Positions 1-44,654 of a DNA stretch of 64,000 nucleotides are shown here, piece after piece. Within the stretch, counting starts at the first letter, position 1; each line of letters starts with the position of its first letter. Position numbers and translations under genes: made by a program. The notes beneath the pieces are model-generated. The model worked only from the letters and a program-made list of their open reading frames with translations. It was not told the origin of the DNA and did no database searches. The stretch is from positions 12,484,294 to 12,548,293 of the forward strand of contig NC_069131.1 of the NCBI RefSeq assembly GCF_026914265.1, written 5' to 3'. The stretch is from Mya arenaria. Taxonomy: Eukaryota; Mollusca; Bivalvia; Myida; Myidae.

Positions 1-513
1 TGTGTAATTTTGTCATTCAGGGTAAGTGTGTGGTTTTGTCATTCAGGGTAAGTGTGTGGTTTTGTCATTCAGTGTAAGTGTGTGGTTTTGTCATTCAGTG
101 TAAGTGTGTGGTTTTGTCATTCAGGGTAAGTGTGTGGTTTTGTCATTCAGGGTAAGTGTGTGGTTTTGTCATTCAGGGTAAGTGTGTGGTTTTGTCATTC
201 AGTGTAAGTGTGTGGTTTTGTCATTCAGTGTAAGTGTGTGGTTTTGTCATTCAGGGTAAGTGTGTGGTTTTGTCATTCAGTGTAAGTGTGTGGTTTTGTC
301 ATTCAGTGTAAGTGTGTGGTTTTGTCATTCAGTGTAAGTGTGTGATTTTGTCATTCAGTATAAGTGCCTGTTTTGTAATTTAGGGTAAGTGTTTGGTTTT
401 GTCATTTTTGTTATTTATGGTAAGTGTGTGGTTTTGTTATTTAGGGTAAGTGTGTGGTTTAGTAATTTAGAGTAAGTGTGTGGTTTTGTAATTTAGGGTA
501 AGTGTGTGGTTTG
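1..513. repeat. 26-bp minisatellite with splice-site-like unit
   Basis: About 20 copies of a 26-bp unit of the form gtgtgtggttttgtcattca followed by gggtaa. The array starts at or before the window edge and decays after about position 350. Each unit contains a pyrimidine-rich tract ending in CAG and, directly after it, a GTAAGTG match to the 5' splice-site consensus. It lies in the intron upstream of the metallopeptidase exon at 660. Confidence 0.95.
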
Positions 514-659: not shown

Positions 660-2335
660 GCGTACCGAAAATGGGTGGATTCGGTTGGCAAGGAGGAACT
701 TCCGTTACCAGGGATGAATTTATCACACAACCAACTGTTCTTTATCAACTTTGCTCAGGTACAGAAAACCGTATGCGTAAAATTACAATTAAAGCATTAC
801 GAGTCGTTAAAGTTATGAAACCACTACATGGATACAGTATATTTTATGATAACGACATTTTAAGGTATCAGATGAAAACTATTGTAAAATGTAAATGCCA
901 GGAATCAACATGTTATTTGGGTATTATTTAAAATGGTTTAATGTGTAAAAGAAGAAAATATGTAAATATTATACCGAAAAGGATATTGCAGCACACTGTC
1001 TTGACTTGGAAAGTTGAACGAAACAAAGAATAAAATTAAAAGGAAATGTGATAACTGTTTGCGCATTGAATTTCCGTCATTTATATCCCATATTAGCAAT
1101 GTGTATATTGATATCATGTCAAATGATACAACACTTATATGATACCCAGGCCTCATAGTGTAACACCATTGCCAATTGCTGGATGACAAAAATTATTGTG
1201 TATCGGATGGCTTTATTATATGTCGCATTGGTAATCTTCAGATTTGGTGCGATAAAGAGAAGCCGGAGGAGCTGAAAAACTCCATTAACACTGACCCTCA
1301 TAGCCCCGCACAGTTCAGGTACGGTTTAGCACTCAAAGTGGTTTAAAGGAACTAGACACCAGGTGGTCGCAAAGTCGGCAAATACAGTATTCCCTAAAAC
1401 AAGCCAATTGACTAGTCAATACAAGCTAGTATAAGGCCGATAATGCTTTACATTTTACATGATTAAAAGAATATTTTGAAGCTATCTCAGCTGAGTATAC
1501 CCGTTTTAAAATAGCGTTTAATGGTTTCCCAGTTTATAGTGTGTATATTAAGCAAGTGAACGTCACGTGATAGTACAGATACATTAACCGACGAAATTTT
1601 GAAATGGAAAAATCCGCAAAAACTGCGAAAGATAAATGTGTAGTTAGCGAGGTTATTCATCAGAAAGTAAGTTTTTGACGATTTTCTTGCAATGGTATCA
1701 TCTGGTGTTAAGTCCCTTTAAACGCAATGAGAGTTCCTTATTATCCCAAACTGAGCTTGCTACCACGGTTGCTTTTACGGTATTTTGATTACTGTGGAAT
1801 GCGCCTCTTTTCTTGCCACGCTATGTGGCTGTCTGGCTCTATTTTCTGTGCGTTTAAACAAACTATTGGTTACGTTTTAGGCTTTTGACTCTGAATGCTT
1901 CCCGGTTGTTTTTGTGCGTCGTCTTTTTCAAAAGATGTTTCTGACAATTCAAAATCGTTTTTTTTGATAATTGATTTAACACATTTTACATTCCTTGTAA
2001 ATTAGACTGTACATGAACATAGCATCATGTACGAATCTAATATCGACAGCGTGCTTTGCAACTCATAGCAATTGAAGTCACACTACCTTGTTCGTGATAA
2101 GTTGTATCTGAGCATATGTTCAAAATAGCGCAATATTTCTTGTAACTGGATTACAACATATATATATAACATTATGGCAATGCTGTGAACTCCGTTTTAG
2201 TAAGAATCCTCTTTTATTTATTGCAGGGTTATAGGAACGCTACAAAACTCACAAGAGTTTTCGGAAACGTTCCAATGTAAGCCGGGATCCTTTATGAACC
2301 CGAAAAAGAAATGCTCCGTCTGGAAAAGAAGATAA
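660..2335 (+). CDS. M13 metallopeptidase (neprilysin/endothelin-converting enzyme family), C-terminal three exons
   Basis: Coding exons are 660-758, 1242-1318 and 2227-2335 (285 nt, 94 codons plus TAA at 2333-2335). All have AG/GT borders and consistent phase. The translation runs from AYRKWVDS through [14 protein letters not shown], then [10 protein letters not shown] and [11 protein letters not shown], and ends [30 protein letters not shown]. The NQLFF-x-x-FAQ segment, the DPHSP-x-x-FRV segment (holding the family's transition-state His and substrate-binding Arg) and the C-terminal CxxW box identify family M13. These are type II membrane ectopeptidases that cleave peptide hormones. The zinc motifs HExxH and ExxxD would lie upstream of the window. 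The ITDPHSP/RVIG wording looks slightly more ECE-like than NEP-like, but the subfamily is not settled. The chain continues three residues (KRR) past the usual terminal Trp. The longer open frame to the left of 660 is intron. Confidence 0.93.
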
Positions 2336-3691: not shown

Positions 3692-5295
3692 AAACGGTAA
3701 ACGTGTATTCCGCTTCTGTATTACAAACAATGCTATATTTATGATTGTTTACACTCGAAACGAAACCAAAACCATCAATGGAAAGAAGCATAAATAAATT
3801 ATAAATATAATCCACGTATACACGCATGTAAGCAACATGTTCATGCAATAGTTTATACATGTAATTGCATGAAAACAGCACACGAATACAATCCGTATCG
3901 GGCGCGTGGCTGTACGCAAATACGCAGTTGCGTAATGAAATTTTTACAGGTGTAAGTTTTTGTCATACCAAAACCCCGAATTTGGAAGAAATACGGGGGT
4001 AAGGGGTGAAGGTGGTAATATGCTGTCCGCCATTGATCTGCCTAATCCGAAATTGGCCCTAGCTACGCACCTGCGTGTAGAATTATATATGTATATGAGC
4101 CGGATTGCGTGATTTCGGCCCTTAAGACAAACTAAGGAGTGTTTTATAGGAAATTTTATGTAGATGACAATTCCATGAAGAAATTCTGAAAGTATATAAG
4201 GGGTTACAAGTAAAACCATACATTCTGCATTTTAAATATTTTACATGGCGTCACACACATGACGTCATTAATACATTTTGACATGTCACCCATTCACGTA
4301 TCAATATTCCAACTAGCTTGTAGTTTTACATATTATCATAACACGAAATCTTTATAGTACAAAATCAGGAATACCTTTCATGTTTCATGTTTGTATTTTT
4401 AAACAAACGGACCGTTTTAGATCAAGTCGGACAGGGATCCGTGGTTACTTTGGAAACATTTGAGAAGTAATCATCATTTAAATCGTCACGAAAACAATGC
4501 ACCAGTGACAATGCTTTTAGATTAGGCTGTTTTTGAGAGATTAAATCAAAACTGAAAAAAAACATTAGCTTTGACATTTTATATCAAGTATCATTTTACT
4601 TATAATAATTATGTCCGAATACTCAAAGTGGTAGGTTCACGATGCCTCAACAAAAAATAAAAAAAATGTTCGCCCTTAAAGTTTATGTATTGATAGATTG
4701 ACCTTAATAAATGCAAATATAAGCTTAATGCGTTTTTTTCGTTACAAAACAATTTGCAAAATACAAAGACCGCCGTCGTAAATGAACTCAAATATCATTA
4801 CGCTGAGCATATTGTTTATATCATTTTCTTGCTAATTTTTCAAATATTTAGTGGACAAACATTGTTAGTTGTTTTTTTAAGTTCAAATTTAAAAAAGGCA
4901 ATTTTCCACTTATTTTTTCACAAAGATGCTTAACGAAAACGGTCCATGATTCATAAACTTGGAAAAAACAAACATTTTCAGCTCTATTTCCATCCGTATC
5001 AAAATGTCGTGTATATATTAGTATAACATATATTGCAGCAGTCTTATTTTTAAACTAAAAATCATATAATGTAACAATGATTCACGCGCCTTCCTTTTCA
5101 TAATTAACCCTATTGATTAAGAAAACAAAAGAGAGTTCCTCTTCGTTGATCGTCAAACGTCAGGAGAAATTCAAAACCATGGACGATTTCTCCACTTTGA
5201 ATAAAACAATGTGTTCAATATTACACCCTACAATCATGATTACGCTACTTTACTATGACTTCATTTTAGTTTCCAATTGATACCTTAATACAATT

Positions 5296-14535: not shown

Positions 14536-14641
14536 ATGCACCACCCTAGAGCTGTGCAACAGGCATGCTGACGTCACGAATCTTTGAAACAACTCTTAGC
14601 CGGGCAACAGGCGTAATGACGTCATGAATCTTTGATACACC

Positions 14642-17600
14642 TCATAGCCGGGCACCAGGCGTAATGACATCACGGACGTAGCGCGCGGCCTCAAGGGCGG
14701 TTCCCCAGGAGTATGCGACACCGCCTGTTCCGTGCCCATAGTTGTGAATAACCTTCATTGAAAAAAAACGTTTAATAAAACATTAAGGTAGACTATAAAA
14801 CTTAAGAATACATAATCATATCGTTAACCACTCGCGATCCACTAAGCGAATAAATAAAAAATGTTGAATTCACGACTGACCTTCATTGATCTGCCTCCGG
14901 TTGACAATGTCTGAATCTCCAGGCGGATGCCACCCTTCCTGCACGGCCTCAGGCCTACCCACTCGTGGTCAGCTTCCGCACACTAGACAGTAATAACAGA
15001 CTTACTGAGAATGTCGTGTAATGTGCCCCCCCCCCCCCCCCCAGAGGGGAGAGGGCGGTTTCATAATGGAAACCTCAGAAACAAAGTGGATTTTGTTCAT
15101 ATCAAAAGGAAAAGTACATGTTAAGAGTGTTCAATTTACTGAGACTTTTCCGATGTGGTTTAGCTAGTCGTGTCCGACTCTTAAGTACATTATAAAGGAG
15201 TCATTTTATAGAAGCATCTTAAGATGAAATTGTACATATTCCTTACATTTAATTAATTTCGTTGGCTGTTTTATTTCACTGGTAGAGAGTTTTATGCGTA
15301 GTGTACTAGTATATTCTGCAATAACAATATGGCAAACTCAGTTGTTGTTTTTTAAATTAAGAAGAAATCTTGAATACTGAGGGGTTTTTTCCCAAAAAAA
15401 CAAACAATTTCAATGTTCTCACTTATGTTGAAAAATGTTAAAATTTTCTTATGATGCTTCTGTTATACGGACCAGAGCTCAAAGCTTGTTTCACAGATAG
15501 GTACTTCCTAAATGTCTCATAAATAAGTTGATATTTGAATTTTTTTCCAGAAGTCTAATCTTAGAAAAATGTGCTCGTCAAGCAGTTTAACAAAATACGA
15601 TCGCACAAAACATTCTGTACCGAAGAGAATATCAACATATACTGCCTCAACGACGGCTTCATTTCAACTCTTCAAAGAGCTTCGTTTGTCACATCGTCGT
15701 TGTTGCAAGCGTTATTTAACGCAACGAAGTATGCACCAGTCAATTGTAACCACGGCCCCCAGGTCCGGGGTATACCGGGAATAGCCGGGGAAATGGGCCG
15801 TGTTTTACCTTTTCAGGTGGCCACGCAGTGTCGGGTGAATGCGTTTGTCTACGCGCAAAAAATAGCGGGGAATGGGCCATACCCGGGGTCCCTTGGTGCG
15901 GGGACATTTGGCGGGGATTTTACCAGCAGTTCATCCCCGCAGGGGATCTTACCCGGACTTGACTGGACCGAATGTCAAAGTCCCCGCTATTCATCGGACC
16001 TGTGGGGGGGGGGGCGGGGGGGGGGGAGGCGTGTTTACAATTGACTGGTGCATTAAATAGGCCGGTTAAAATGAAAATAATACAAGCTGTACATATATTG
16101 ATGCTTTGCATGGCAAAGAGCCCGCCCCTTCAGAAGTTAGTTTCACGTGACTCATAAAAGAAAAAAAATGCAAATCGATGACAGCGATAAACAGGGTTTT
16201 TTCTTCATGTGTGAACTTGATTTACAGGTCACCCATATTACACTTTTTTCTATATTCACTTTGTGATTCTTGGCTAGAGCAAACTCCACGATCGTGTAAT
16301 GTATAAAAAATAACTTAAGTGTCACTCTTATTCAAAATCAATACATACACATGAATTGCAAACCTAAATTTTGAGTGATAAACCTTTAACTACTTACTAA
16401 ATAATGCATTTATGGAAAATATTGATTTCTGATAACATGACTGTAACTGTGTATTTCATTGCTGAAAATGCAAAATTATTAAATGATTGGTAAATGGTAA
16501 AAGATTTACAGTGATCTAATGTAGTCTCATAAGGTAGAAATACTGTGTTTTCTGCACCTTTCTTTCAAATCAAACTCAGTATCCTTCATAAGAACATACT
16601 AGTAGTTATTTACATGTATTTATTCTTTTTGGTATATTTAAACAATTGTATTAACTGAGGTAAATTTTATTTGAGAGTAAGAGTACATTCTTACGAATAA
16701 TAGTTTAAACCTATATTTAGACCGATGAAACTCATTGTAAACCCTAAAATGCATAAGTAATTGTATATCAGCGAGTGTATGACGTACCTTAATGGCGGGA
16801 CAGAGCCGCTCACATCGATCCCTTATTTCCCGGCCTCTCGCGGGATCAGGGATCAGAGTCTCGTCCCCTTCCACCTTAGAACCACCAAGAGCAACCAGGT
16901 CTTCACTTGAAAATCAGAAATTTTCAAATAACAGACTTATTGCAAAAAAAACTGATTAAATTGAAAAGTTATCCTTTTGATAACCTTTCGCTTCTTTGCG
17001 TAATGATAACAGTACTGTTTAATAGTGATTATTGGATGTATACACATGTTTTTAATAGAAAATTTACTTCCCCGCTTACGTTATCACTTATGGAACCGGG
17101 ACACCCCCCCACATCACCCATCAATCACCTAAAATCGTCCGAGTTTACTTTTATTTCAAAATCGAAGTACCACCATACCCCGGAATGATATAACAGTACC
17201 ACCATACCCCGGAATGATATAACAGTACCACCATACCCCGGAATGATATAACAGTACCACCATACCCCGGAATGATATAACAGTACCGCCATGCCCCTGA
17301 ATGAAATAACAGTACCACCATACCCCAGAATGATATATCAGTAAAACCGCACCCCGGAATGATATATCAGTACTACCATACCCCGGAATGATATAACAGT
17401 ACCACCATACCCCGGAATGATATAACAGTACCACCATACCCCAGAATGATATATCAGTAAAACCGTACCCCGGAATGATATATCAGTACTACCATACCCC
17501 GGAATGATATAACAGTACCACCATGCCCCTGAATGAAATAACAGTACCACCATACCCCAGAATGATATATCAGTAAAACCGTACCCCGGAATGATATATC

Positions 17601-20600
17601 AGTACTACCATACCCCGGAATGATATAACAGTACCACCATACCCCTGAATGAAATAACAGTACCACCATGCCCCTGAATGAAATAACAGTACCACCATAC
17701 CCCGGAATGATATAACAGTACCACCATGCCCCTGAATGAAATAACAGTACCACCATACCCCAGAATGATATATCAGTAAAACCGTACCCCGGAATGATAT
17801 ATCAGTACTACCATACCCCGGAATGATATAACAGTACCACCATACCCCTGAATGAAATAACAGTACCACCATGCCCCTGAATGAAATAACAGTACCACCA
17901 TACCCCGGAATGATATAACAGTACCACCATACCCCGGAATAATATATCAGTACCACCATACCCCGGAATAATATATCAGTACCACCATACCCCGGAATAA
18001 TATATCAGTACCACCATACCCCGGAATAATATATCAGTACCACCATACCCCTGAATAATATATCAGTACCACCATACCCCGGAATGATATATCAGTACCA
18101 CCATGCCCCGGAATGATATAACAGTACCACCATACCCCGGAATGATATATCAGTACCACCATACCCCGGAATAATATATCAGTACCACCATACCCCGGAA
18201 TGATATATCAGTACCACCATACCCCGGAATGATATATCAGTACCACCATACCCCGGAATAATATATCAGTACCACCATACCCCGGAATAATATATCAGTA
18301 CCACCATACCCCGGAATGATATATCAGTACCACCATACCCCGGAATTATATATCAGTACCACTATACCCCGGAATAATATAACAGTACCACCATGCCCCT
18401 GAATAATATATCAGTACCACCATACCCCGGAATGATATATCAGTACCACCATGCCCCTGAATAATATATCAGTACCACCATACCCCGGAATGATATATCA
18501 GTACCACCATGCCCCTGAATAATATATCAGTACCACCATACCCCGGAATAATATATCAGTACCACCATATCCCTGAATAATATATCAGTACCACCATACC
18601 CCGGAATTATATATCAGTACCACTATACCCCGGAATAATATAACAGTACCACCATGCCCCTGAATAATATATCAGTACCACCATACCCCGGAATGATATA
18701 TCAGTACCACCATGCCCCTGAATAATATATCAGTACCACCATACCCCGGAATAATATATCAGTACCACCATATCCCTGAATAATATATCAGTACCACCAT
18801 ACCCCGGAATAGTATATCAGTACCACCATGCCCCTGAATGATATATCAGTACCACCATACCCCGGAATGATATATCAGTACCACCATACCCCGGAATAAT
18901 ATATCAGTACCACCCTACCCCGGAATAATATATCAGTACCACCATACCCCGGAATGATATATGTGTCGTGGTCGACGTACACCCAGTGTTTGATCCACGG
19001 TGCACGGACCTGCGAAATAAAAAGTAGGAAATGTACAAGTACAATTTCCGATATAAATCATTGAAGTTTACTTAATACATCAGACTTTGATTTCTTTAAA
19101 ATAAAATGAAAGGTCAGTATTCATGTTAATGCAAAAAGGTTGCTAAATATACACGATAGTGGCCATACAAGTGGTTTAGGTTCCGCCTCTCACTCAAGAG
19201 GTCTTGGATTCGAACAGCCCAAGGATATTTTCAATTGGCGTCTCAAAAAGACAAGTGAACTGGTTTTATCCAGGAAATGGACACGAGGGTGATAGCTGTC
19301 TTCATATTGACTATCGAGCTCATCACGATAACGCATATGCTAACTATACACGAGCTAAATCAGTGTGTGTATACCACGTGATAAATTACGTCATACATGC
19401 TACGTCGGAAGGCAACATTTTGCTGAAAATAAAGACTTAAATCAAAGATAACTTTTCTTTTACTACACCATTTTAAATAAAACAAAGGGCAGTCTATGCC
19501 GCTTTAAGAGCCCCGCATTTGTTTTTTACCAAAAATTGTTAAGGTCATTAGTTTCATCAACTACTTCGACAAACTTGTTTCCAAAATAATGTTTTGACAG
19601 TGCTCCGTCAGACGGCCGCATTGTGAAAAAGGTATGTCGAGGTGTTTAAAGAAACTAAACTCTCAATCAAACTGTGGTAAAAGACCGAAGGCAGGGCTCC
19701 TTAAGCGGCGTAGACTGCGCTATGTTTCGTTAAAAATGGTGAAGAAATAGTGAAGTTATTTGTATTTAAAGTTGTTGTTTTAATCAGAATATTGCCTTCC
19801 GATGTAGCATTTATGACGCAATTTATCACGTGGTATACACACACTGTAAGTACAACACTGGAAGAATGAGGAATGAGTTGACATAAAGTTTCAATGACCT
19901 CAAAATCAAAATGAATTTTGTATTATTTAAACTAAATAAATGTTGGTGTAAGTGGTAAATTGACCTCACCCTAACCATGTGTCCTCGAAGTGCGTATAAT
20001 TTCCGGTCCCCGCAAAGCTCCCGGCTGCCGAGGCTTGTACAGTTCACCACTGCCCCGAACTGCCCGCACAGCTGTGAAAGAGGTAGAAGCAATGATTTAT
20101 CATGTCGTATACTTCTTGAGGTATCTGGGCGTTTGTCAAGTGATCGAACAGTTGGTCTGAGAGAAGTTCGATGCGTATGGATCCTCATTATACGACCTGC
20201 AGACTTCTCGCAAACATGAACTTTGTGTCAGGTCTTTCTATGCCCATATATGAACAGAGTAAACAATTTTCCAAGACAAACGTTGTGACTGTAGTCTATT
20301 GCGACTATTCGAAAGTTGGAAATATTAAGAAACGTTATAAAAGGGGTAACTCTTGAACATAAAAAAATCTTGAACATAAAAAAAGTATTTTTTCACTCGT
20401 GGCTTTGCCACTCGTAAATATTTATATCCTATATCTATACTATGCTTTCCGGTGATTTTACAGAGATTTATCAATGAAATTACAAATATAAAATTAATAT
20501 ATGTATTGTACATGTTTAGTGTTTGTAATGTATACAACCTCTGATAAATCCGTGAATCTCTTCTGAATAAACGTCACGCCCCTTTTTTCAAGACTGCAAG

Positions 20601-23600: not shown

Positions 23601-26600
23601 ATAATATCGAATGTCGAGCTAGAATTCCGTCCAGCTCGACATTCCATCTCGACATTGAAGATTTGCTATATAATATCGAATGTCGAGCTAGAATTCCGTC
23701 CAGTTCGACAATTCAGCACGACATTGAATATTTCCTATATAATATCGAATGTCGAGCTAGAATTCTGTCCAGCTCGACATAGCAGCTTGACATTGAATAT
23801 TTCCTATATAATATCGAATGTCGAGCTAGAATTCCGTCCAGCTCGACATGGTAGCTCGGCATTGAAGATTTTCTATAAAATATTGAATGTCGAGCTAGAA
23901 TTCCGTCCAGCTCGACGTTCCAGGTCGACATTAAATAACTGCTATATTATATCGAATGTCGAGCTAGAATTCCGTCCAGCTCGACGTTCCATGTCGACAT
24001 TGAAGATCTGCTATATAATATCGAATGTCGAACTAGAATTCCGTCCAGCTCGACGTTCCAGGTCGACATTGAAGATCTGCTATATAATATCGAATGTCGA
24101 GCTAGAATTACGTCCAGCTCGACAATTCATCACGACATTGAAGATTTGCTATATAATATCGAATGTCGATTGTCGATTGCCGATGGCTGAGCCAACTTCA
24201 CACACATTATTTACATGTTAAAGCAGCACTCTCACAGATTGACAGTTTTGACATTTTTTTTTGTCTCAAAATCAGTTGATTTCTGGTATCAATACCATCA
24301 ATTCAGTCATTTCACATAACAATAGAACAAATCTCAATTCTGAGGGAAACTGCTGAAAATTTCATTTTCTTAAAGCGTTAGTGACGCTTTTAGTAATTAA
24401 ATATCATTTTTCGAACGTTAATATGAAAACTGCGATCAGATATTCTGTCACCAGTCATATATCACTGGTTTCCAGACATTTACGCAAAAATTGGTTCATT
24501 CGAAGAAAAAAAAACATATAAAAAGTGACCTAAACGGTGAATCGGTGAGAGTGCAGCTTTAATGTAGCAATGTGAATTATTGTTGCATTCATTCATTCCA
24601 TTCATTCATAAAGTTGCTATTAAAATTAATGTGCAATGTATGAATATGCATAATTATGTTACAAATGGTCCATAAACTCTGCCTACTTCTTCTGCATCCA
24701 TTGCAGGTATTTGCTCTGGTTTATGATGTAGGTCGTTATCGCATAACCGTGTCTGAAAAATATAATAAACATCTGATAATAAATATAGCAATCCTAGATG
24801 TAATAAACTGTAAAGACGATGAGAATTCAAAATTTCGGAATTCGCCTTGTGGCAAAACGGCTTGAAATTGGCGGTCTTGTGGTCTAGCGGCTTGAAATAA
24901 GCAGCCTGTTGGCCAAGCGGCTTCAAATAAGCGACCTGGTGGCCTAGCGGCCCAGTGGCTTGAAGTTCAGCGTGACATTTGATTATATTCATTGCAAACA
25001 GAGCTGAATACGTCAAATCAAATCGATTCTCATAATTTACAACCATTACATGCTAAATTTGATTGGGGGGGGGGGTGCATTTTATTTTAAAAGACGGGTC
25101 TGATGGGGTAGAAATATCATTAAAATCAGAACCCCAATGCCCGTTTTAATGCCGTATACAGCGCAATGAAATGAAGTGAACGTCACGATATGATTTTAAT
25201 TAATAAGATTTGTGGCCTAGCGGCCTAAATACGGCATGACGTTTGCGGATTATTTATACATGTATAAACAACTTTTTGACTAACAATTGAATTTACGTTT
25301 TCAATACAACATACTTGTACTCCGATAACCCAAGCCTGTGAAGTTCTTGTTTAGTCATTTCTCTAAAACTGATGACGTCATCTCTATAAGGTGGTTCTAC
25401 TTCAATGTCTTCTTCCGTCCTCGCGAGCAGAAATCCGGACAAAGCCATGGCCCCTGCCACCCCGGCCTCTGGTCCTGTCAAAAGCTCGCGAAAGTAGCTT
25501 CCCGATTCCCTCATCCATTGCCTGGAAATATAAAATGACATTATGTTGGTTTTCCGTAAAACTCATATTATACAGTCGTATACACGTGAACGCGGATCAG
25601 GATATGCTAACTATATTCTACTAGTGTTTACTCTCATCGCTCTGCCAATGCGATCGCCGGACGGATTCATTTACAAAGCATCTGACGAAAATACTGCCAA
25701 GCTGTGTAAGCTTATCTATACTCGCCCTCGGGTCTTGCCCATTTGGCGAGTGCTCCGACAAGAGCGTTAGTCATGTTATATTTTTTTGGAACATAGTGCA
25801 AAGACAGAATGTAAACCTGGTAAGAGCTACCCTGGTTCTTTAACGTGCACCAATGTATAGCACTGTCACACGGGACCCGTCCATTTAACGTCCATCCCGG
25901 AAGACGATTAGTATTTGTTTAGTGATGCGGTGGGGAATCGAACCCTGCCATAAGGCTGCCAATTTTCCCGAAATTTGTTTTATTAAGTGGCCTTTTTAGA
26001 CGTTCGCACATGCGTGCTAGCTGATACAGAGACATTCGCGCAAAACAAACACTAAGGAAGTTACTATCTATGTTACTAAACAACCCAGCTTATGCCGAAT
26101 TAGTTGTGTAATCAAACAAACAATAACAACTATTTATAGATTGAGTCGAAAAGCATTCGGAACTCCTCGGCCATTTTATCGAAAACAACCTCGGATGTAC
26201 GGTTTACGGCCCCCAGGTCCGGGGGTATACCGGGGATAGCCGGGGAAATGGGCCGTGTTTTAACCTTTCAGGTGGCCCCGCAGTGCCGGGTGAATGCGGT
26301 GGTTTTGTCTTCGCGCAAAATATAGCGGGGAATTTGCCTTACCTAGGCTCCCTGGAGTGCGGGGGCATTTGGCGGGGATTTGACCATCAGTTCGTCCCGG
26401 GGTTGGCTGGGCCGAAAGTCAAAGTCCCCGCTATTCCCCGGACCTGGGGGCCGTGGTAACAATTGACTGGTGCATTACTCTAGGGAATCTTAATTATGTT
26501 TGCAATAATACACTTCACTGGCAATCAATTTAAACTGAGATCAATAAATATAGATTATGCAACTCTAAAACACTACATTTAATTTATGATAGAATTCAAA

Positions 26601-27004
26601 AAGTTACGAACTACTTCAACTGATGTACCGGCATACATCCGAGGTTATTTTCGATAAAAATGGCCGAGGAGTTCCGAATGAGTCGAAAAGCACCCTTTGA
26701 TAAAAAATATTTTGAATCATATTACTGCTTAAATGGGTTGATTTTAACGTAGCTCCCTTATGCAATACATACATGGTTCATACAAAATTCTTATTCACCT
26801 GTATCTATGTTTATTATCCTCTCCTGCCGAAAACAACGACGGTACAAACAGACCGCCACTTCCGTAGCTCGTCGTGTCCGCGCCGAACTTGTCCGCCATC
26901 ACGGTGACCTTGACATCGGGTAAAAGGTCGAGGACTGCGGCGGCCGTGGATAGACCGATCACTCCAGCGCCCAACACGGCCACGGAACCGGAAGTGGACA
27001 TCAT
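14642..27004 (-). CDS. DDO: D-aspartate oxidase-like FAD enzyme (DAAO/DDO family), complete, 342 aa
   Basis: Nine exons in transcript order: 27004-26799, 25521-25315, 24752-24687, 20593-20539, 20071-19970, 19009-18948, 16905-16788, 14982-14881 and 14752-14642 (1029 nt, TGA at 14644-14642). Family enzymes oxidise D-amino acids to 2-oxo acids, ammonia and H2O2 in peroxisomes. The N-terminal VAVLGAGVIGLSTAA is the dinucleotide-binding Rossmann motif. HGYAITTYIINQSKYL, VVNCTSLGSREL, VRAPWIKHW, TYIIPG, VALGGS, HEWVGLRPCR and VIHNYGHGTGGVAYSWGTAL follow in family order. GLRP carries the substrate-carboxylate Arg. The short loop before TYIIPG and the GTALEAAR ending favour DDO over DAAO, but substrate is not proven. 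The C-terminus GARL fits the type 1 peroxisomal signal (A-R-L). The length matches the family (about 340). Two Met codons start the ORF; the first is used here. Introns are loaded with mobile elements, and exon 6 abuts a 1.8-kb array made from its own donor. Confidence 0.95.
15729..16056. mobile_element. GC-rich MITE with TIR TGCACCAGTCAATTGTAACC, copy 1
   Basis: Left TGCACCAGTCAATTGTAACC and right ACAATTGACTGGTGCA are inverted. The interior is GC-rich (ggtccggggtataccggg, agccggggaaatgggccgtg) and ends in a poly-G run near 16005-16026. It is in oxidase intron 7. Other copies: 26195-26478 and 63484-63726. The ORFs inside are by-products of high GC. Confidence 0.85.
16314..16693. mobile_element. 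MITE of the AGTGACACTCTTATTC family, copy in oxidase intron 7
   Basis: The left end gtgtcactcttattcaaaat and right end ttatttgagagtaagagtac are imperfect inverted repeats. The same family occurs at about 20745-21087 (inverted), 27280-27655, 31200-31373 (partial), 43572-44108 and 47073-47421. Confidence 0.75.
17163..18965 (-). repeat. 29-bp minisatellite (~62 copies) made of the oxidase exon 6 / intron 6 junction
   Basis: The plus-strand unit is ataccccggaatgatatatc plus agtaccacc. Read on the oxidase strand it is TATATCATTCCGGG/gtatggtggtactga: the last codons of exon 6 (YIIPG) followed by its 5' splice site. The true exon (19009-18948) runs straight into the first unit. Variants (atgcccctgaatgaaataac, ccccggaataatatatcagt) form higher-order blocks. 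A 29-bp period with no stops in the consensus keeps minus-strand frames open, so the apparent 70-130 aa repeat proteins are artefacts. Confidence 0.97.
19361..19846. mobile_element. MITE with TIR CAGTGTGTGTATACCACGTG, copy 2
   Basis: Second copy of the family at 5696-6174, in oxidase intron 5, with both inverted ends present. The flanks TAAAT and TAAGT match only in part. A tRNA-like stretch (gaggtcttggattcgaacag, about 19155-19225) lies just to its left and may be a SINE head. Confidence 0.8.
20745..21087. mobile_element. Diverged MITE of the AGTGACACTCTTATTC family, inverted
   Basis: In oxidase intron 3. Contains ttctcatgaaggatactgag, ggtgcagaaaacacggtatt and gattttgaatgacggtcact, the complements of parts of 16314-16693. 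The right end matches the family better than the left. Confidence 0.6.
21391..24207. mobile_element. 2.8-kb foldback element with tandem-repeat arms, in oxidase intron 3
   Basis: Outer ends are inverted: ATGTGTGTGAAGTTGGCTCA at 21391 and GAGCCAACTTCACACACAT ending at 24207. Each arm is an array of a unit of about 65-70 bp (cgacattcgatattatatag, caaatcttcaatgtcgagct, gcaatgtcgagctggacgga, attctagct). The left arm is about 21416-22965 and the right arm about 23372-24180, in opposite orientation. A core of about 400 bp holds a second perfect-looking inverted repeat (about 23073-23175 against 23263-23364) built on ccaaaactggcaatcaattt. The element could fold into one giant hairpin. There is no transposase; long arrayed arms are typical of foldback transposons. 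Confidence 0.85.
24220..24562. mobile_element. MITE of the AAGCTGCACTCTCACAGA family, copy 1
   Basis: Left aagcagcactctcacagatt and right ggtgagagtgcagctttaa are inverted. In oxidase intron 3. Other copies: 27757-28108, 30368-30730 and the cluster at 41729-42397. Confidence 0.8.
24843..24972. repeat. ~33-bp imperfect tandem repeat, ~4 copies
   Basis: Copies of a unit like gtggcctagcggcttgaaat in oxidase intron 2; an isolated copy recurs near 25212. Confidence 0.75.
25810..25965 (-). mobile_element. SINE fragment with conserved central domain
   Basis: Contains ctggttctttaacgtgcacc, the complement of the gcacgttaaagaacc core seen at 47750-47775, and a B-box-like complement ggggaatcgaaccct. 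In oxidase intron 1. Confidence 0.6.
26195..26478. mobile_element. GC-rich MITE, copy 2
   Basis: Shares cggcccccaggtccgggg, atagccggggaaatgggccg and the right end acaattgactggtgcat with 15729-16056. The outer left end is missing or diverged. In oxidase intron 1. Confidence 0.8.
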
Positions 27005-34600: not shown

Positions 34601-37600
34601 TGTGCCATTATGTGGTAGGTTGCACGGTGTACCATTATATATTGCACTTTGTGATTTAACGAGTATGTTGTATCATTATATGTAATGTTGTACGTATGTA
34701 CTTTGTGCTATACTAGGTTAATGGGACGGTGAGACTATTATAATCATGTCTTTACGGGTTGACATTCATTATTTTACGTATGTTTGGTGTTTTTCTTTAG
34801 AAACTCAGACCGCAGGCGAAATCACAGCCGAAGTTAAACTGAAAGACCTCCGTGAATTTGATTACGAAGTACAGAACGCCTACAAGATATATGCGCGCGC
34901 ATACGACGGCGTCCAGTACTCGGGGTTAAGCGGGGTGCTGCTTAATATCGTGATTAATGACATCGGGGAAACTCCTACACTTGACCCCCCAACGACGTCC
35001 CAATCTTTTAGTGCGGAAGAGGGACCGGTAGGTGTTGTCACCTTGTTGCTCTTTACATTATAAGACAGAAAATTATTATTTTTCGCTACGTTTACTACGT
35101 AAGAGGACATATTGGTGTACTAAAACGTAGCTTTTTGTCGTGCTGTGGTGACACATTTGGTAATGATATGCAGAGTAAACAATAAGCTGTCTTAGTTTAT
35201 GCCTGCCATTATATAATAGAATTAAGAAAATAGATCTATTTTATATCTCCTCTACCCTAAACCCTGCAGGCTGGCAGTAAAATCGGTGACCCGAGCTTCG
35301 TTGTGGTTGACGCGGATAGCGCCGAAATTCATACCTGGACCGTTACCGGGGGAACAGGTCTGTAACGTAATACAACTTTTAATGCAATATTTCTAATTTG
35401 ATGAACTGGATTTCTTGCTGATTTTCAGACATCGAATCACCTCTTGGTGGCCATCAGGATACGGGCGCCGATGTTTTCAAAATACTAGCTGCTTGATGAT
35501 TTTTTTCCAAACTAAGCTATTTAAATCTTACGACAACTAGTTGTGTATAAAACAACTAGCTCAAATGAGATATACTGTGATGATCGTGAAAAGTGTTTAA
35601 CATCACTATGTTTATCACCAGGTGAAGACTTTGTCAACGTGAACGTCTTGAACGGCACTTTGACGTTGAGAAAAACGTACGATCGAGAAAACACCGCGTT
35701 AACGGAGGAAGTTTACGTCAATATCTCCATAGCGGACCGCTTCGGGCTTACGTAAGTTGATATAACAAATCTGTCATTAAATGCATAGTTTGTATACAAA
35801 TGTATATGTACAAAAGCGTATTAAAATTCTGGTTGGAATACATAAAGAAATATGTATTATTCACTGTAGAAGTCCAGGAACAAGTTTAAAATGTAGATCC
35901 TATATTAATAATTTATTAAACTCGTAAAAATAACCACAGCGCTTAGCCTGTATAGTCATTAGCTATGTGTCATTTCAGTGTCGAAACCGCTTACTACGTG
36001 ACGTTTAGCGACACGAACGATAACATACCGACGTTCAGCCCCTCTTACTATACGTTTGACGTAAGTAAAATCACATGGTATAACATGCTGAAACGGTACA
36101 CGTTGTGATTAACGCATTTTTTTCACTATAATAAAAAAACAATTTCTAGACTTTAAGCCAACGAAATCGCCTATCGACCTCGAAATAAGTTACACGCTTA
36201 AGAGACATGGCGATTTAATTTGGTTCCCCGCCTGATGAAAACATATTATATAATAAAACATGTTGTGTTATTAAATCTGTATTGCTTTAATGGGCTTGCT
36301 TGCTCCACCCTTCGTAATACTTATGATTTTATAACTTTCTTCACAATCTTTGTAAAATATATACTTTCGTTGTTACATTGACGTCTCATTATTACACAGA
36401 TGAACAATGAAAACATCTCTGTCGGTGACGTTCTTGTGACGTTAACGTACACGGATCTGGACGCTGACAGTCCAAACAATGAGGTCACACTGTCCCTCGA
36501 TACGTCGAACAGCTACACGGACTATTTCGAACTTGTTGAATCCAACATAACGCTCTCGGTTAGTTTTAAACGTAGTGGTTTGCGTTTAAAATAACAGATG
36601 GATTGCGAATAATTAGTATATTCAATCGACGTAAAGTAGAAATAAAATCAAGTAGCGGACATAGGTGGGGCGTAGGTGGGGCTTATCATATACGTCACAC
36701 TGGTTAGGGTTAGGGTGGTTAAGGGTTAGGGTAAGGTAGTAGCACATAGCCGCTGCCTTATTTTAAGATTTATATAAGTATTTATACAAGGCGTTATTTA
36801 GCGGACGTAGGCGCTGCGTAGGCGGGGCTTATTGTATGTGTCACACGGGTTGAGGGTATGGTTAGGGTAAGGGTAAGATAGTGGCACATAGCCGCTGCCT
36901 CATTTTAATATTTATTTAAGAAGGTGTGCTATTGTCGCCCCCTACCGGATGTTATATTAGGCGTTATGTAGCGGACGTAGGCGGTGCGTAGGCGAGGCTT
37001 ATTATGTACTTCACAAGGCAACGTAAGGGTGGGTTAGGGTTGGTTAGGGTAAGTACAATGTAGTGACACATAGCCGTTGCCTTATTTTAAGATTTACATA
37101 AGTACACGTGTTTTACCGCATTCTACGGGATATTATACAAGGCGTTATGTAGCGGACGCAGGCGGTGCGTAGGCGGGGCTTATCATATGCGTCACACGGG
37201 TTAGGATTAGGATGGATAAGGGTTAGGGTAATGTAGTGGCACATAGCCGCTGCCTCATTTTAATGTTTTATATAAGTAGGAGTGCTCATTTTGCCTTCTA
37301 CGGGATGTAATATAAGGCGGTTTGTAGCGGACGCAGGCGGTGCGTAGGCGGGGCTTATCATATGCGCCACACGGGTTAGGATTAGGATGGATTAGGGTTA
37401 GGGTAAGGTGGTAGCACATAGCCGCTGCCTTATTTTAGTATTTCATATAAGTTAGCGTGCTATTTTCGCCCTCTATGGAATGTTATATATTTATCTTAAG
37501 ATTTATATAAGTGGCGTGCTATTTTAGCCTTATACGGGATGTAATGTAGACATCATGAAGTATCTACTATCCAGACGCTTGAATGTATGGGGCGGGATGT

Positions 37601-40600
37601 TTTTGGACAGTTTTGTAGCTATATGCCCAATAAAAAGTGCATGCTTAAGCGCAAAATATATATCGTTCAAAACAGATTTTCGTTTTTGACGTTCTAAATA
37701 AACAGCATGTTTCGTTTATAATGATCCAATTATTCTGAATACATTTTTTTATGTAATCGCCCACTGACGTTAGACACAACAGCCGCTGTTTTTAATAAAA
37801 TGACGCAATTATCTCAATATAATGGTAATTTTTTTTTTAAATATTATTGTTTTGTAAAATGTACTGTTCTCCCAATCAAGCAACTTTATGAATTTCAGAT
37901 CATGAATGACCTGGTATACGGCGACGGACCATTCACCTTCTACGTGTTGGCTACGGACGACGGTGACACTCCGCTAACAGGAACCGCAACCATAGAGTTC
38001 GGGTTGCCAACAGCCACCGACCCAACCCACACGACCACGACTCTTATACCTCCTCAGTCCACGGGTGGCGATGAGATGGCCTCCAACACGGAAATGGTCG
38101 GCGTCATGATTGCCTGCTGTTTTATTGCAGGTAGGTTAGGTTTACCTTTTGATATATATCCGACTACTTCTGTTTTATTTCAGCGGTGATAACAAACTGT
38201 ATGTTCCAATGTGATATAACAACGGTGATAACCAGTTATCTTTTCTATCCCAGCGGTGATACCTACCTGTTATGTTAAAACGGTGTTAACCAGTTAACTA
38301 TTTTATCACAGTGGTGATACCTATCTGTTATGTTACAACGGTGATAACCAGTTATCTTTTCTATCACAGTGGTGATACCTACCTGTTATGTTACAACGAT
38401 GATAACCAGTTATCTATTCTATCACAGTGGTGATAGCGAGTCAATTATAATAATCAGCTACCTGTCATATTGCAGCTGTAATAACCAGCTACCTGTCATA
38501 TTGCAGCTGTAATAACCAGCTACCTGTCATATTGCAGCTGTAATAACCAGCTACCTGTCATATTTAAGCTGTGATAATCAGCTACCTGTTTTATTGCAGC
38601 TGTGATAATAAGCTACCTGACATATTACAGCTGTGATAATCAGCAACCAGTCATATTTCAGCTGCAAATATCAGCAACCAGTCATATTTCAGCTGTGATA
38701 ATCAGCAACCAGTCATATTTCAGCTGTAATGAACAGCAAACAGTCATATTTCAGCTGTGATAATCAGCAACCTGTTTTATTGAAGCTGTGGTGTTCAGCT
38801 ACATGCCATATTGCAGCTGTGATATTTAACTAACTGTTTTATTGCAGTTGTGATAATCAGCTACCTGTTTTTTGCAGCTGTGATAATCAGCTACCGGCCA
38901 CATTGCAGCAGTGATAATCAGCTAACTGCTACATTGCAGCTGTGATAATCAGCTACCTGACATATTGCAGCTGTGATAATCAGCTACCTGTCACATTTCA
39001 GCTGTGATAATCAGCTACCTGTCATATTGCAGCGGTGGTAATCAGCAACCAGTCATATTTCAGCTGTTGTAATCAGCTACCTGTATATTTCAGCTGTGAT
39101 AATCAGCTACCTGTTGGTATTATGTTGGCGATGGCACACGTACGGACAGTGTCTACCGAACTCTTTGAGATCTGCCGATTGCTGCTCTCTTCCCAACAAT
39201 GACGAGGAGTAAGTATCCGTGTTGTACCAAGCATCGATATGTTTGCATGGCATTGATGTATGACTTCCCTGAGAAATGAATGAATCGCATAATTTATATA
39301 TGGAAATGAAAGACAGATCGAAGGGGTTTTATTTGAAATCATTGCAGCGCTTTATAAGCTATCCGACTCACAACTGTTTAGTTTATGGATGCTTTGTGAC
39401 ACAACATTATTTTGGTAGCATTCGAGCTTGGTGAGCCACAAAAGAAAGTGTGGTTACCCGAAATTATTAGTTTGGGCCTTCAAATATTTAAAAATATGTT
39501 ATTTCAAGTCCTTTTTCAATGGAAATAATGAACAAATATGGAAACTGTAATACACTTATGTATACTGTTTTTGTTTTTTAAATTATTTTAAATATAAAAA
39601 CATCAAACGAATCCCGATCAAAGGATACGAAAACTTTATAAGTCTACCTGGCAGATGCATTACAATTAAAGGTCATTGTAACTATCAGAAAACCAATCGA
39701 TTTGTGGGTCAGGCACCATAGCACAGATGCTGTTAATGCGATATTTTATGCATGAGGAACTAACAAAGGATCAAAATATATTTCGAATGACATGTTTCAT
39801 TGATATGAAAGTTACATCATGTCAGGGGGTACTTAAATTTAGAATTTATCCTGAAATGAGGATTGAGAGTTTCAACTTGTAAAGATTATTTTTGCTCTGA
39901 CATAAGCATAAAAAATAGAAAATAGGACACGGACAAAATACCCTGGATTGTATAAAAAAGACTTTGGAAATAATTTCTTTGGGACAAGCCCAAGTATCTG
40001 CCATTTGGGCAACGAACAAAGAAATCAAACGTCCGAACCGGATTAAAACTAAAGATAAAGAAGGGCGGACAGCCAAACCTACGACAATGAGAAAGAGTTT
40101 TCTCCCTTAATAATTATCAGATTTCCTCAAAAATTGCTAAACGAAGTATTCGCCCCTTTACCCTGCTACTGGCATGGTTCCCTTATTACCAACGGATCCC
40201 CGTATCTAGCCCTTACCCTTTCCAGGATCGACAATTATCAGGTGTTTGAACTCCGCAATACATATTGTGATTCATTTTAACATGTTTGAGAGAGGCTTAT
40301 ATTTTGTTTATTATTATTTTCAGCGAGGATGAACAAATTATTGCCAGCATCCCGAATGTACACGGAAAAGATGGTAGATCATTTTAATTACATGTTTTAT
40401 TTCGTTTAAACTTTTTATTTTATAATGATTGTGAAGAAAGTTCAATCACGATTTTGCGCGATAGTGTGGTTTTGTGTTGTGGGGGACACAGAATTGCCCG
40501 AAGAAACCCCTTTTGTCAGACTTGGTGACAACCAGCCAATCTCACGTAAACCCAGGCTGGTAATCGAACCCGAGACGCCTTGGTAAGAAGCAAGAGCGAT

Positions 40601-40807
40601 CACCATTGCCCTAACCAGACAACCAGATGTTGTTGTGTTTTGTTTTTGTTTTGTTTTTAAATCTGTACATATACCAAATAACACAAACTGTCGTCAACCG
40701 TCAAAAGTATTTTTTTTACGATTCCATCAAACATTAGCGTTATCAAAAATAAACTTTTCTTCTTTATTTCAGGTTCGGGACTAGGAAAACAGTATGGTAA
40801 CTACTAG
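28686..40807 (+). CDS. Single-pass membrane protein with three cadherin-like repeats (CDHL-B), complete, 449 aa
   Basis: Eleven exons: 28686-28737, 31416-31595, 34801-35027, 35270-35357, 35622-35751, 35979-36060, 36400-36558, 37899-38130, 39094-39208, 40324-40373 and 40773-40807 (1350 nt, TAG at 40805-40807). Phase is kept throughout. Exon 1 is a signal peptide (MNAFGLLLFFELLHIVYG); it was picked because it is hydrophobic, ends in phase 1 at a GT and joins NEKPVFTV, but its donor (gttcgt) is weak. Three cadherin-like repeats follow, at about 19-135, 136-242 and 243-345. Calcium-type motifs are INDIGETP, TYDRENTALTEE, SDTNDNIPTF and TDLDADSP. After a Thr-rich stalk comes a transmembrane helix at about 371-396 (VGVMIACCFIA, then VIISYLLVLCW) split by an intron. 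The tail has QCLPNSL and DCCSLP, then an acidic run and a GKQYGNY end. Intron position in the helix and the CLP/CC tail motif match CDHL-A. Cell-surface adhesion or recognition is inferred. Confidence 0.85.
29505..30251. repeat. 58-bp minisatellite, ~13 copies
   Basis: Near-identical units (aatctgtaccgctctgtacg, tttaattgatacacttttga, tctacagtatttcaatca) in CDHL-B intron 1. Few single-base variants and two one-base insertions, so recently homogenised. Confidence 0.97.
30368..30730. mobile_element. MITE of the AAGCTGCACTCTCACAGA family, copy 3
   Basis: Left aaagctgcactctcacagat and right caatctgtgagacgcagctt. In CDHL-B intron 1. A partial copy of the other (AGTGACACTC) family follows at about 31200-31373. 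Confidence 0.8.
31605..34655 (+). repeat. 54-bp minisatellite, ~56 copies, in CDHL-B intron 2
   Basis: The unit is gctagtgcggtgtaccgttc, tgtgttatgttgcatgcttg, cgctttgtgctaca. The array starts about 10 bp after the exon-2 donor and ends about 145 bp before exon 3. Because 54 is a multiple of 3, an 18-residue repeat (ATASAVYRSVLCCMLALC) stays open from the coding exon to about 33646. Other frames on both strands are also open, so this is a property of the repeat and not by itself evidence of protein. Each unit has a pyrimidine-rich stretch ending in CAG. Confidence 0.96.
36640..37535 (+). repeat. ~175-bp tandem repeat with TTAGGG-like core, ~5 copies
   Basis: In CDHL-B intron 7. Each unit has tagcggacgtaggcggtgcg, taggcggggcttatcatatg, gggttagggttaggatgg and gcacatagccgctgcctcat. 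The gcggac marks are at about 36654, 36799, 36972, 37151 and 37328. The TTAGGG-type runs are short and interrupted. Confidence 0.9.
38172..39093 (+). repeat. 31-bp minisatellite (~30 copies) made of a CDHL-B intron 8 / exon 9 junction
   Basis: The unit is ctgtgataatcagctacctg plus tcatattgcag. Exon 9 (39094 onward) starts CTGTGATAATCAGCTACCTG after a final ttcag, so the unit is the 3' splice site plus the first codons of exon 9, which encode VIISYL of the transmembrane helix. Copies are diverged at the left (ggtgataaccagttatcttt) and close to consensus at the right. Confidence 0.95.
40440..40640 (-). mobile_element. tRNA-derived SINE, minus orientation, diverged
   Basis: Contains ggtaatcgaacccgagacgc (B-box complement) and accattgccctaaccagaca (A-box complement), plus the body gatagtgtggttttgtgttg shared with 6960-7240. 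In CDHL-B intron 10. Confidence 0.65.
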
Positions 40808-41274
40808 CCACAACTCTGACCACAGACATTGGATTAACACTAACGAAAGTAACAAGCGACTTACTGGATAAGCGGGTCTTTTCAGACGGACTTGTGATAT
40901 TTGATATTGTTTTTGTGTGTGCATGTTTCATACTAGTCATTAGAAAAGTTGCGTGCACATTAAATTTGTAAACATGTTTAAACGGTCAATTCATAGAGTA
41001 ACCATGCATAGTTCCATAGATACCCATTCTTAACAGATTCTCACAATTGATTAAATTTAGGTTTAGTGGTCAACATTATATTTTGTCCAATGAAAATGCA
41101 TTTTTTTCTCAAGTTTTCCAATACATATATTTCAGTTAGTCAGCAGTCAGCCGTTATTGGTTTATATCAAGTGAATCGGTATATATAAACAGTAACTTGG
41201 GCAGTTTGTTGGTAGTTTACATAATATAATGTAGACCACTTAAAATTAAAGATTGTTGGTATGTACTTACACAA

Positions 41275-41280
41275 AATAAA
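41275..41280 (+). other. Candidate polyadenylation signal of CDHL-B
   Basis: An AATAAA hexamer about 470 bp after the CDHL-B stop. It is a plausible transcript end; no other support. Confidence 0.3.
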
Positions 41281-41728
41281 TGGTTCTGATCTTAAATCAT
41301 TACTTAATGTTCAAAATACTAAATACAAGAATCTGCTGTAAGACTGTGTTTGGAGGCAATTTAATTGAGTATCCAAATTAGATAGTAAACAGTTCATTTT
41401 AGTGATATATGTCATGTACCCTATGGATGTTAATAGTGAAGTATGCTTTGCTGTTTTAAACCGACTTTCAGTGACAATTTTATACAGCTAGTGATTAAAC
41501 GGTAACGATTCAAATATTACTCTATTTTTGTGTATAACTATTTAAAACCAAACTATTTAAACATCGTAAGAACTATGAACCAAAGACGCTTAATCACGCA
41601 TGCGCGAGAGTGTCAAACGTGTAACTCACAGGGGGTAGACAATGAGTTTCACTCCCTTCCTTCCTAAGAAGACTAGTTAAAATACACTTTACGGTAAATC
41701 CCATGCATATGAACCGTTACAGTTGTTT

Positions 41729-42397
41729 AAAGCTGCACATCACACAAATTCACCGTTTTTACAACTGTTTTTATTTTTTGTCCTGGAATGAGAAAATGTG
41801 TGCATAAATATCTGCAAACCGGAAATAAAAGACTGCTGACAAAAATCAGATCGCAGATTTTCATATTTCCATTCGAGAATTAATGTTTAATGGCTAAAAG
41901 CGTTACTAACGGTTTAAAGCTGCACGCTCACAGATTTACCGCTTTTACAACTATTTTTTTATTTTTTTGTCTTTGAAAGAGCAAATTTTTGAATAAATAT
42001 CTGCAAACTAATGACAAAAGTAAGCTGACAAAAGATCAGATCGCAGATTTTCATATTTCCGTTCGAAAATAATGTGTTATGGTTTAAACCGTTACTAACG
42101 GTTTAAGAAAAATGCGTGAAACATCAATTTTTGAACTTAAATATATAAATCTGTGATCTATTTTTTTGCCAGCAGTCTTTTTTAACTGGTTTCCATGCAT
42201 TTTCCCAAAAATTGGCTCGTCCCAAGACAACAAAATAAAAAAGTTGTCAAAACGCTCAATCTGTGAGAGTGCAGCTTTAAGAAAAAATCATAAATAAATA
42301 AGCATTTTTTACATGCAGTTTTGCATAAATTTGCTGGTTCCAAGACAAAATATAAAAAATGTTGTCGAAATGTTCAATCAGTGAGAGTGCAGCTTAA
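41729..42397. mobile_element. Nested cluster of AAGCTGCACTCTCACAGA MITEs
   Basis: A broken copy begins at about 41729 (aaagctgcacatcacacaaa). A full copy spans about 41917-42281 (left aaagctgcacgctcacagat, right caatctgtgagagtgcagct). A further right end follows to about 42397 (tcagtgagagtgcagctt). The pattern fits one copy inserted into another. Confidence 0.75.
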
Positions 42398-42754
42398 AAT
42401 ATTAATATATTAATATTAAGATATGATTTCATGCTCGTTAATTTCAAAAGGTAGATTATTGTTTATTGTACGTAATGAAGTTGAAATGTATACATATATA
42501 TTTATTTCATTTTCCTTTTCAATTCTATTTCAACATAAACATATAAAACGTCACAAACATGCATATCAAAATCACTTACCGTAATATTTTTCCTGTACAT
42601 GTATATTACGCCCTAGGTATTTACATTTACGCCCTTAGATTGAAAGGGAAGATGTTTTATAAACTGTTATCAATTGTATTTGTCAACCATTGTACACTTT
42701 ATGCTTCACTGGTTTACGACCTACTGGTTTATCATAAATAAAACTTGAAACTTA

Positions 42755-43245
42755 AAGGCCTAGTTTAAGCAATGTTTGGCATGATGATTCCCTGCCGTGC
42801 ATCTCCTGTTAAATGCAGTGGTGTCGCAGTAGGGGCCAATTTCCTGTGTGTTTGTTTATTGGCCCAGGGCCATAAAGGGTTGACTATTTCTATAACCAAA
42901 CTTGAACTGCACAGCAGGATACTCAAATCAGAGATCTGATAGACAGCACAAGGCAATAAAGGTTAAGATCAAAACACAGAAGTTGTGTACTATACACAGT
43001 TTTAGGTCACTTATAGAAGGCTTAAACTAGGCCTTTAAATGCTGGGCATCTTCTGCTAATTGCACTGGTGTCACAGTAGGGACTATTTTCCTGTGTAATC
43101 GTTTATTGGCTCAGGGCCATTAAGGGTCCATTTCTATAATAAAACTTCTAAAACTGCACAGCATACTCAATGCAAGTAAATTAAGATCAATAAACAGAGG
43201 TTGTGTACTATACACAGTTGTTTTTTTTTTGTGTTTTTTGTTGTT

Positions 43246-43287
<42 letters not shown>

Positions 43288-43330
43288 TTGGGGGCCACTT
43301 ATAGAAGGCTTTAACTTGGCCTTTCAAATG
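42755..43330. mobile_element. Two adjacent copies of the AAAGGCCTAGTTTAAGC element
   Basis: The first copy runs from aaaggcctagtttaagc to gcttaaactaggccttt (about 42755-43037). A second, partly truncated copy follows to about 43325 and holds a (GTT)n microsatellite at about 43240-43285. The right end of the first copy may be the junction with the second. Confidence 0.7.
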
Positions 43331-43571
43331 CCAAATGCTACTGAACTATCGTGTTAAAGAGCGTTCGATAGAATTATAATACTCATGTCAATTCATTCTT
43401 ATTGATGTATCCAACATCATTGTATTTCCTGTCTCAGTCTTGACGTGAAATGAAATAGGTTTTCATTTGTTAATATGTGTTTATATTTTATATGATTTGT
43501 TCATATAGAAACCATGTATAGTTTAAGTAAATACAAACTTTGTTCTGTTTTAATGTTGGCAAACTATTTAA

Positions 43572-44108: not shown

Positions 44109-44654
44109 TTCTTAGTTGTATCTGACACATAAATGGGCATATGTTTGTGGGCTAAATTATACATCAAATACACGGGCATTCATTTGTAAATATTCGTGTT
44201 TTGTGCTATTAGTATTAGTTTCAGTCAGTTTATATTTATTTCATTATCATTTGTTTTCTTTGTTTACATTAAATAATTTATTATTTATCGAAACGGTCAT
44301 GTTTTATTTATTCAACCATTATTTACCTCATGTTATTTTATGTTGAGAACCAAGCGATTGATTGTTTTTATGGGTGTAAATAAAAACCACAATATAAAAA
44401 ACAATCGTTTTTTTTTGTTCATAGCTGTGTTCAAAACAATGCAATGGAAATTACACCGTACACGGTAAAAAAAGGTCTGCTCTCTTTTCAGCAACAACAG
44501 AGAACCTCAGTATAGTAAACTTCCATCAAAATATATAAATAATATACACACATACATCGCACGGACAAGCCCTGCCACATAACAGGGGCAACACTAGCAA
44601 CTGCACAGGGACACACTTGTGCACAATAACCATCATGGCAACTGTAGAAAGACA

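Follow-up and report, generated by a model that had tools for sequence, protein, structure and literature searches.

A minisatellite built from an exon end and its 5′ splice site in a D-aspartate-oxidase-like gene of Mya arenaria

When the end of a coding exon and the 5′ splice site (donor) that follows it are repeated dozens of times in tandem, which donor is used, and what becomes of the others? This question is raised by a 64,000-nucleotide (nt) stretch of the clam Mya arenaria (C10:12484294-12548293 of a 1.216-Gb assembly in 18 contigs; hereafter the window), in which a D-aspartate-oxidase-like gene of nine exons on the minus strand, with a product of 342 amino acids (aa), carries a 29-bp minisatellite that starts within exon 6 and fills much of intron 6. 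We consider it quite probable that a duplication of the exon end and its donor grew into a tolerated, drifting array, with the first donor chosen through exon definition and the messages from later donors decayed.

The array and its source exon

Exon 6 (18948..19009, minus strand; 62 nt, encoding VRAPWIKHWVYVDHDTYIIPG) was placed by its acceptor tttcgcag, its donor GGG/gtatgg, the reading frame, and homology; the first 5′ splice site, the GT of GGG/gtatgg at 18946..18947, is implied by the annotated proteins. Tandem Repeats Finder reported a repeat at 17166-18962 with a period of 29, 62.0 copies, 91% matches, and 0% indels. When phased on the exon by unit alignment, the minisatellite occupies 17165..18962 (minus strand) as 62 units of 29 bp with no indels and makes up most of the 2042-nt intron 6 (16906..18947, from the exon coordinates). 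The first unit (unit 0, 18962-18934) is composed of ATATATCATTCCGGG, the last 15 nt of exon 6, followed by GTATGGTGGTACTG, the first 14 nt of intron 6, with the boundary between exon end and donor reading TATATCATTCCGGG/gtatggtggtactg; at the other end, the last unit passes into unique intron sequence. Because the last 15 nt of the exon are identical to the unit and in phase with it, a chance match is no serious alternative. There are 20 distinct sequences among the 62 units, and in 41 units (unit 0 counted) the donor 9-mer is identical to that of exon 6 itself. An earlier note on this DNA had described an array built from the exon end and its 5′ splice site, and the in-phase units and the junction-spanning unit 0 bear this out; its figure of about 60 donors in series holds for the number of units but not for the donor dinucleotide, which is GT in 48 units, GC in 12, and AT in 2.

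The 15 nt shared by exon and array encode YIIPG. In a protein alignment of 16 rows, three of which are products of the oxidase gene itself, the proline of this motif was invariant and the tyrosine nearly so. The junction with exon 7 reads YIIPGEDLV in Mercenaria (P0004) and Ruditapes (P0006), while the homologues P0003 and P0005 read YIIPGENLV and YIIPGEDLV, respectively; at the same motif, D-amino-acid oxidases of the PDB read yiipg and the D-aspartate oxidase 6rkf reads yiypg. The motif is therefore older than the clam array, which makes the exon the source and the array the product, in agreement with the direction previously proposed. The identity of the gene is in line with this family: its top protein match is P0001, an M. 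arenaria D-aspartate oxidase-like protein (99%; PF01266), and its top PDB relative is 6rkf (E 6.6e-73, residues 6-334). With full-length homology and the conserved family residues, the gene is, judged from its sequence, a member of the D-aspartate oxidase/D-amino-acid oxidase (DAAO) family with a putative substrate.

Donor choice and the second genomic copy

The donor position of every unit was spliced in silico to exon 7 onward in both genomic copies of the gene, the second of which is described below. Exon 7 (16788..16905, minus strand, from exon modelling) begins with T-GAA-GAC at 16905 and makes an in-frame join with the donor of unit 0, the sole array donor found to give the full product of 342 aa. 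Splicing from the donor n = 1 gave 259 aa with a stop in exon 7, the donor n = 2 gave 252 aa, and n = 3 and all later donors gave 256 aa, ending at the TGA of the third extra unit, such that even the later donors that keep the frame stop within the array. The 69 units of the second copy gave the same outcome. Retention of intron 6 gave 256 aa and skipping of exon 6 gave 212 aa (window copy only). For the downstream donors, the stop always precedes the last exon junction by 170 nt or more, in both copies. The two annotated clam proteins, P0001 and P0002, both show the first-donor junction YIIPGEDLV; that the first donor joins exon 7 correctly, as had been anticipated, is thus seen in the clam proteins and in those of its relatives.

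Selection of a stronger or more open first donor was considered and rejected, as U1 pairing is better at unit 1 and none of the units is predicted to be open. The predicted U1 duplex was -7.0 kcal/mol for unit 0, as for the copies identical to it, and -9.4 for unit 1; donor accessibility was low in all units (0.004 in unit 0, maximum 0.051); and exon 6 with ten units was not unusual in structure (z 0.42). What sets unit 0 apart from its copies is position, as it is the nearest to the upstream 3′ splice site. The introns that flank exon 6 measure 960 and 2042 nt and are long in the sense of the exon-definition rule. According to Carranza, Shenasa and Hertel 2022 (PMC9225289), under exon definition the upstream of two competing donors of matched strength is preferred, and in minigenes whose introns were 365 nt long only the upstream of two identical strong donors was used. 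The clam introns are longer than those of the minigenes, and first-donor choice fits this cross-exon proximity rule, by which, among equal competing donors flanked by long introns, preference goes to the donor closest to the upstream 3′ splice site.

The proposed course of events would begin with a short tandem duplication across the exon 6/intron 6 junction, and unequal exchange or slippage would then have expanded it into a variable-number minisatellite. The spliceosome would define the 62-nt exon 6 across the exon, pairing the exon-proximal donor with the upstream 3′ splice site, and the first donor would win despite 40 later copies of the same donor 9-mer. Messages from later donors would carry a premature stop and would be removed by nonsense-mediated decay; the array would, as a result, be mostly tolerated intronic DNA with a copy number that drifts (62 and 69).

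The second of these copy numbers comes from a genome search with a 20-mer of the unit, which found another array 1.4 Mb away on the same strand; of the 51 matches listed, 21 fell in the window and 30 in the second array, with none elsewhere among the matches listed. Collinear matches to this second copy cover 59,314 of the 64,000 window bases, and among the 24 matching pieces longer than 150 bp, 19 are at least 96% identical and five are 87-95% identical, with identity mostly in the range 96-99%. Sequence sampled at 12.60 and at 13.00 Mb also aligns to positions about 1.39 Mb beyond it on C10, and a sample from 12.30 Mb gave no match within 13.68-13.71 Mb. The second copy has 69 units, 56 of them with GT and 48 with the identical donor 9-mer. 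Copy number differs, as in a minisatellite, between homologous and collinear copies: the array opens with the same two units in both and gives way to unique intron at the same point, while the order of the array interior is reshuffled. Differences in the coding sequence were limited to three codons, two silent and one G316S (3 of 1012 aligned coding sites, 0.30%, versus 101 of 8680 noncoding sites outside the arrays, 1.16%; Fisher p 0.009), and the second copy encodes a protein identical to P0001. The published M. arenaria reference, which its size suggests is the assembly used here, derives from one clam, a choice due to the high heterozygosity of bivalves, and was assembled with FALCON-Unzip and purge_haplotigs (PMC10663159). 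The second copy is probably the other, unmerged haplotype and less probably a real duplication of 1.4 Mb.

Other readings of the array were weighed against these data. We think it rather unlikely that the array is a copy-number dial, in which extra donors would divert transcripts to decay and allele length would set oxidase output. The identical donor 9-mers in the two copies (41 and 48), of which every downstream one is unproductive, and the variation in copy number speak for it, as does, by analogy, the human gene IFI6, in which downstream repeat donors can be used; on the other side stand the exclusive use of the upstream donor in the exon-definition minigenes and the reshuffled interior, in which constraint is not visible. 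It is very improbable that an unrelated intronic satellite reached the exon edge by chance, or that the array converted the exon. Minisatellites are abundant in the clam DNA sampled (29 arrays over 18.6 of 179 kb, from a scan of the window, L030, L018-L021, L023-L025, L026, and L027-L029, with second copies and window parts left out), but the motif encoded by the common 15 nt is kept in distant relatives, the array continues the phase of the exon, and all of the listed 20-mer matches fall in the two loci. Just as improbable is a decaying pseudogene, for which donor choice would be irrelevant: nothing was found to speak for it, the full 342-codon frame is found in both copies, coding divergence is well below noncoding divergence, and the product is 45% identical to the Mercenaria and Ruditapes proteins. 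Last, the earlier note had offered either a strong rule for picking the first donor or length isoforms with 29-residue multiples inserted from donors n = 3, 6, and so on; the former is supported, with donors n = 1-61 truncating to 252-259 aa, while the latter, for all that 29 × 3 = 87 nt keeps the frame arithmetically, has next to no chance, being ruled out in both copies by the TGA of the third extra unit, which ends translation at residue 256.

Donor duplications in other clam genes

Arrays that include an exon end and its donor were found in two further genes. In a neprilysin-like gene on the plus strand, a 66-nt exon ends VDGENTLGENIADNGGLKQSFR, followed by gtaagt, and a 26-bp donor-bearing array starts at this exon end (L030:4960, about 40 bp left of the window) and continues through 1..512 of the window; the next exon lies at 660..758 (exon modelling, P0241 match). 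The peptide of three exons of this gene matches endothelin-converting enzyme 1 and neprilysin (E 4.5e-27 and 2.8e-26, respectively), and the array has 16 in-phase units with 14 GT, 1 GC, and 1 AT. Its units carry near-consensus donors, AGG/GTAAGT or AGT/GTAAGT, and its donor n = 3 is in frame and open, adding 26 residues, while n = 6 is not. The same gene has a second donor duplication (L030:1043-1240, 43-bp × 2.5) derived from the end of its exon 2, and decayed copies of the end of its exon 6 were seen by eye in the intron (L030:3850-3910 and 4390-4475), which the junction-duplication test described below did not score (13). A KIF13B-like gene on the same chromosome (L023-L025, minus strand) has three arrays, of 55, 88, and 87 bp, each with an exon end and donor; a Pfam scan of L023:1-7000 yielded two weak Kinesin_assoc exons only, both under the curated cut-off. 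The 87-bp array after its exon A (L025:5196-5602, minus strand) is in frame and open for four extra donors at 29 residues each, which on reading-frame grounds favours it over the oxidase array as a candidate source of length isoforms. In the annotated KIF13B (P0122) and neprilysin-1-like (P0241) proteins, the first donor is used at all six array junctions, and all seven annotated donor-duplication junctions of the three genes use the first donor.

Each exon-end (donor) and exon-start (acceptor) junction was then scored for a local second copy. In the first set, drawn from the three genes, a local copy was found at 7/22 donors versus 0/22 acceptors (Fisher p 0.009). The duplicated donors were those of oxidase exon 6, neprilysin exons 2 and 7, and kinesin exons A, B, K1, and K2, and the best copy was on the intron side at all seven. 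With two donors and three acceptors added from the same genes, none of them duplicated, the counts were 7/24 and 0/25. Two kinesin genes (C8 and C3), taken from a family listing blind to repeats, had no duplication at 11 donors and 10 acceptors and no tandem repeats; together with the three genes, this gave 7/35 donors versus 0/35 acceptors (p 0.011). Exon edges were drawn by eye in the neprilysin-like, KIF13B-like, and two kinesin genes; for the first two genes, 12 of the 14 by-eye exons were matched by tblastn (P0241 and P0122), with kinesin A and K2 identified by peptide in P0122, while the edges in L031 and L032 rest on the by-eye setting. Among the 29 scanned arrays, 4 had a best donor at a shuffle p of 0.03 or less where about 0.9 were expected (the oxidase's own donor, p 0.18, was not one of these), and 2 had an acceptor at p < 0.05 where about 1.5 were expected, so that donor enrichment among array units is suggestive. 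The published rule also favours the exon-proximal 3′ splice site, and the rule alone therefore does not predict the asymmetry. The pattern of donor duplication is real in these three clam genes; its genome-wide rate and a bias of donors over acceptors are not established.

A number of points weigh against the first-donor reading and the donor pattern that accompanies it. Five of the seven duplicated donors were the reason that their genes were examined, and with these five seed junctions removed the contrast is 2/30 versus 0/35 (p 0.21); moreover, 22% of random gene-span positions scored as duplicated, a background dominated by arrays, and donors are thus not shown to exceed the intronic background. 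It may be that the annotated proteins are predictions, with gene finders favouring the donor that keeps the frame; exon definition of the clam exon 6 is itself an assumption from intron lengths. In PMC9225289, weakening of the donors left the upstream preference intact for smaller exons, while minigenes with larger exons mostly skipped the exon, and about 60% of all human events, when strength was not matched, favoured the downstream donor. Human IFI6, too, makes use of its downstream repeat donors (PMC4526556). Furthermore, under intron definition the opposite donor wins, namely the intron-proximal, downstream one, and the Reed-Maniatis intron-proximal preference, as recounted in PMC9225289, predicts use of the last array donor, the opposite of what a functional oxidase needs. 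Each proximity rule points to a different end of the array, and a working enzyme results only under the exon-centric one.

Known systems and remaining features of the window

The human gene IFI6 reportedly contains a minisatellite that provides multiple splice donors. Its unit is 12 bp and keeps the frame. Two downstream repeat units of IFI6 act as donors and give isoforms (PMC4526556). Like IFI6, the clam array has tandem units with a 5′ splice site (GT in 48/62 units, and in 56/69 of the second copy), and it begins inside the exon, taking in that exon's donor. Unlike IFI6, where downstream units yield isoforms, every downstream donor in the clam truncates the frame, and the clam unit is 29 bp and present in 62 or 69 copies; the resemblance is therefore one of anatomy, and the clam array is not classed with IFI6. 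New with respect to IFI6 are the frame-breaking units with dead-end later donors and the recurrence in two other clam genes. A search of titles and abstract openings, in which subscription journals were thinly covered, recognised no other gene with a donor-bearing repeat, and with the same thin coverage nothing was found on bivalve intron minisatellites at splice sites.

We hold as rather unlikely the broader proposal that donor-spanning minisatellites are a recurrent class in the clam genome, seeded at exon ends rather than at the starts, tolerated thanks to the advantage of the first donor, and controlling through copy number what share of the mRNA is productive. If true, the class would comprise length-polymorphic expression dials and a natural test bed for splice-site choice. 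The donor-competition work of PMC9225289 drew on two donors in minigenes and on human data, whereas the clam intron has dozens of donors that share one 9-mer (with as many as 48 GT donors, their use deduced from annotation and frame) in two length variants. That an exon end and donor are duplicated in three genes of a single chromosome hints that splice junctions are asymmetric in mutation or selection.

Elsewhere in the window, a 58-bp and a 31-bp array with CAG/GTAG donors (38219-39114, minus strand) lie beside a possible exon ending CHRQHNTNR; a Pfam search of 34700-44600 in the three minus-strand frames found no family at E 0.01, and this exon is accordingly unproven. The remaining oxidase exons, all on the minus strand and placed by exon modelling, are exon 1 from the ATG (26799..27004), exon 2 (25315..25521), exon 3 (24687..24752), exon 4 (20539..20593), exon 8 (14881..14982), and exon 9 with its TGA (14642..14752); exon 5 (19970..20071, donor AGG/gtgagg) agrees with P0001 and yields the 342-aa product. 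P0002 (OXDD-like, 295 aa) is translated in a different frame over part of exon 3, has no exon 4, and is probably a faulty gene model. The product ends at a C-terminal ARL, which we take to be a PTS1-like peroxisome signal. At this end of the gene, Tandem Repeats Finder reported a 48-bp × 2.5 tandem duplication (14556..14674, minus strand) derived from the last codons of exon 9 with the stop codon included; it is present in both genomic copies, with copy 0 ending in ARL and the last copy in AQL followed by a stop.

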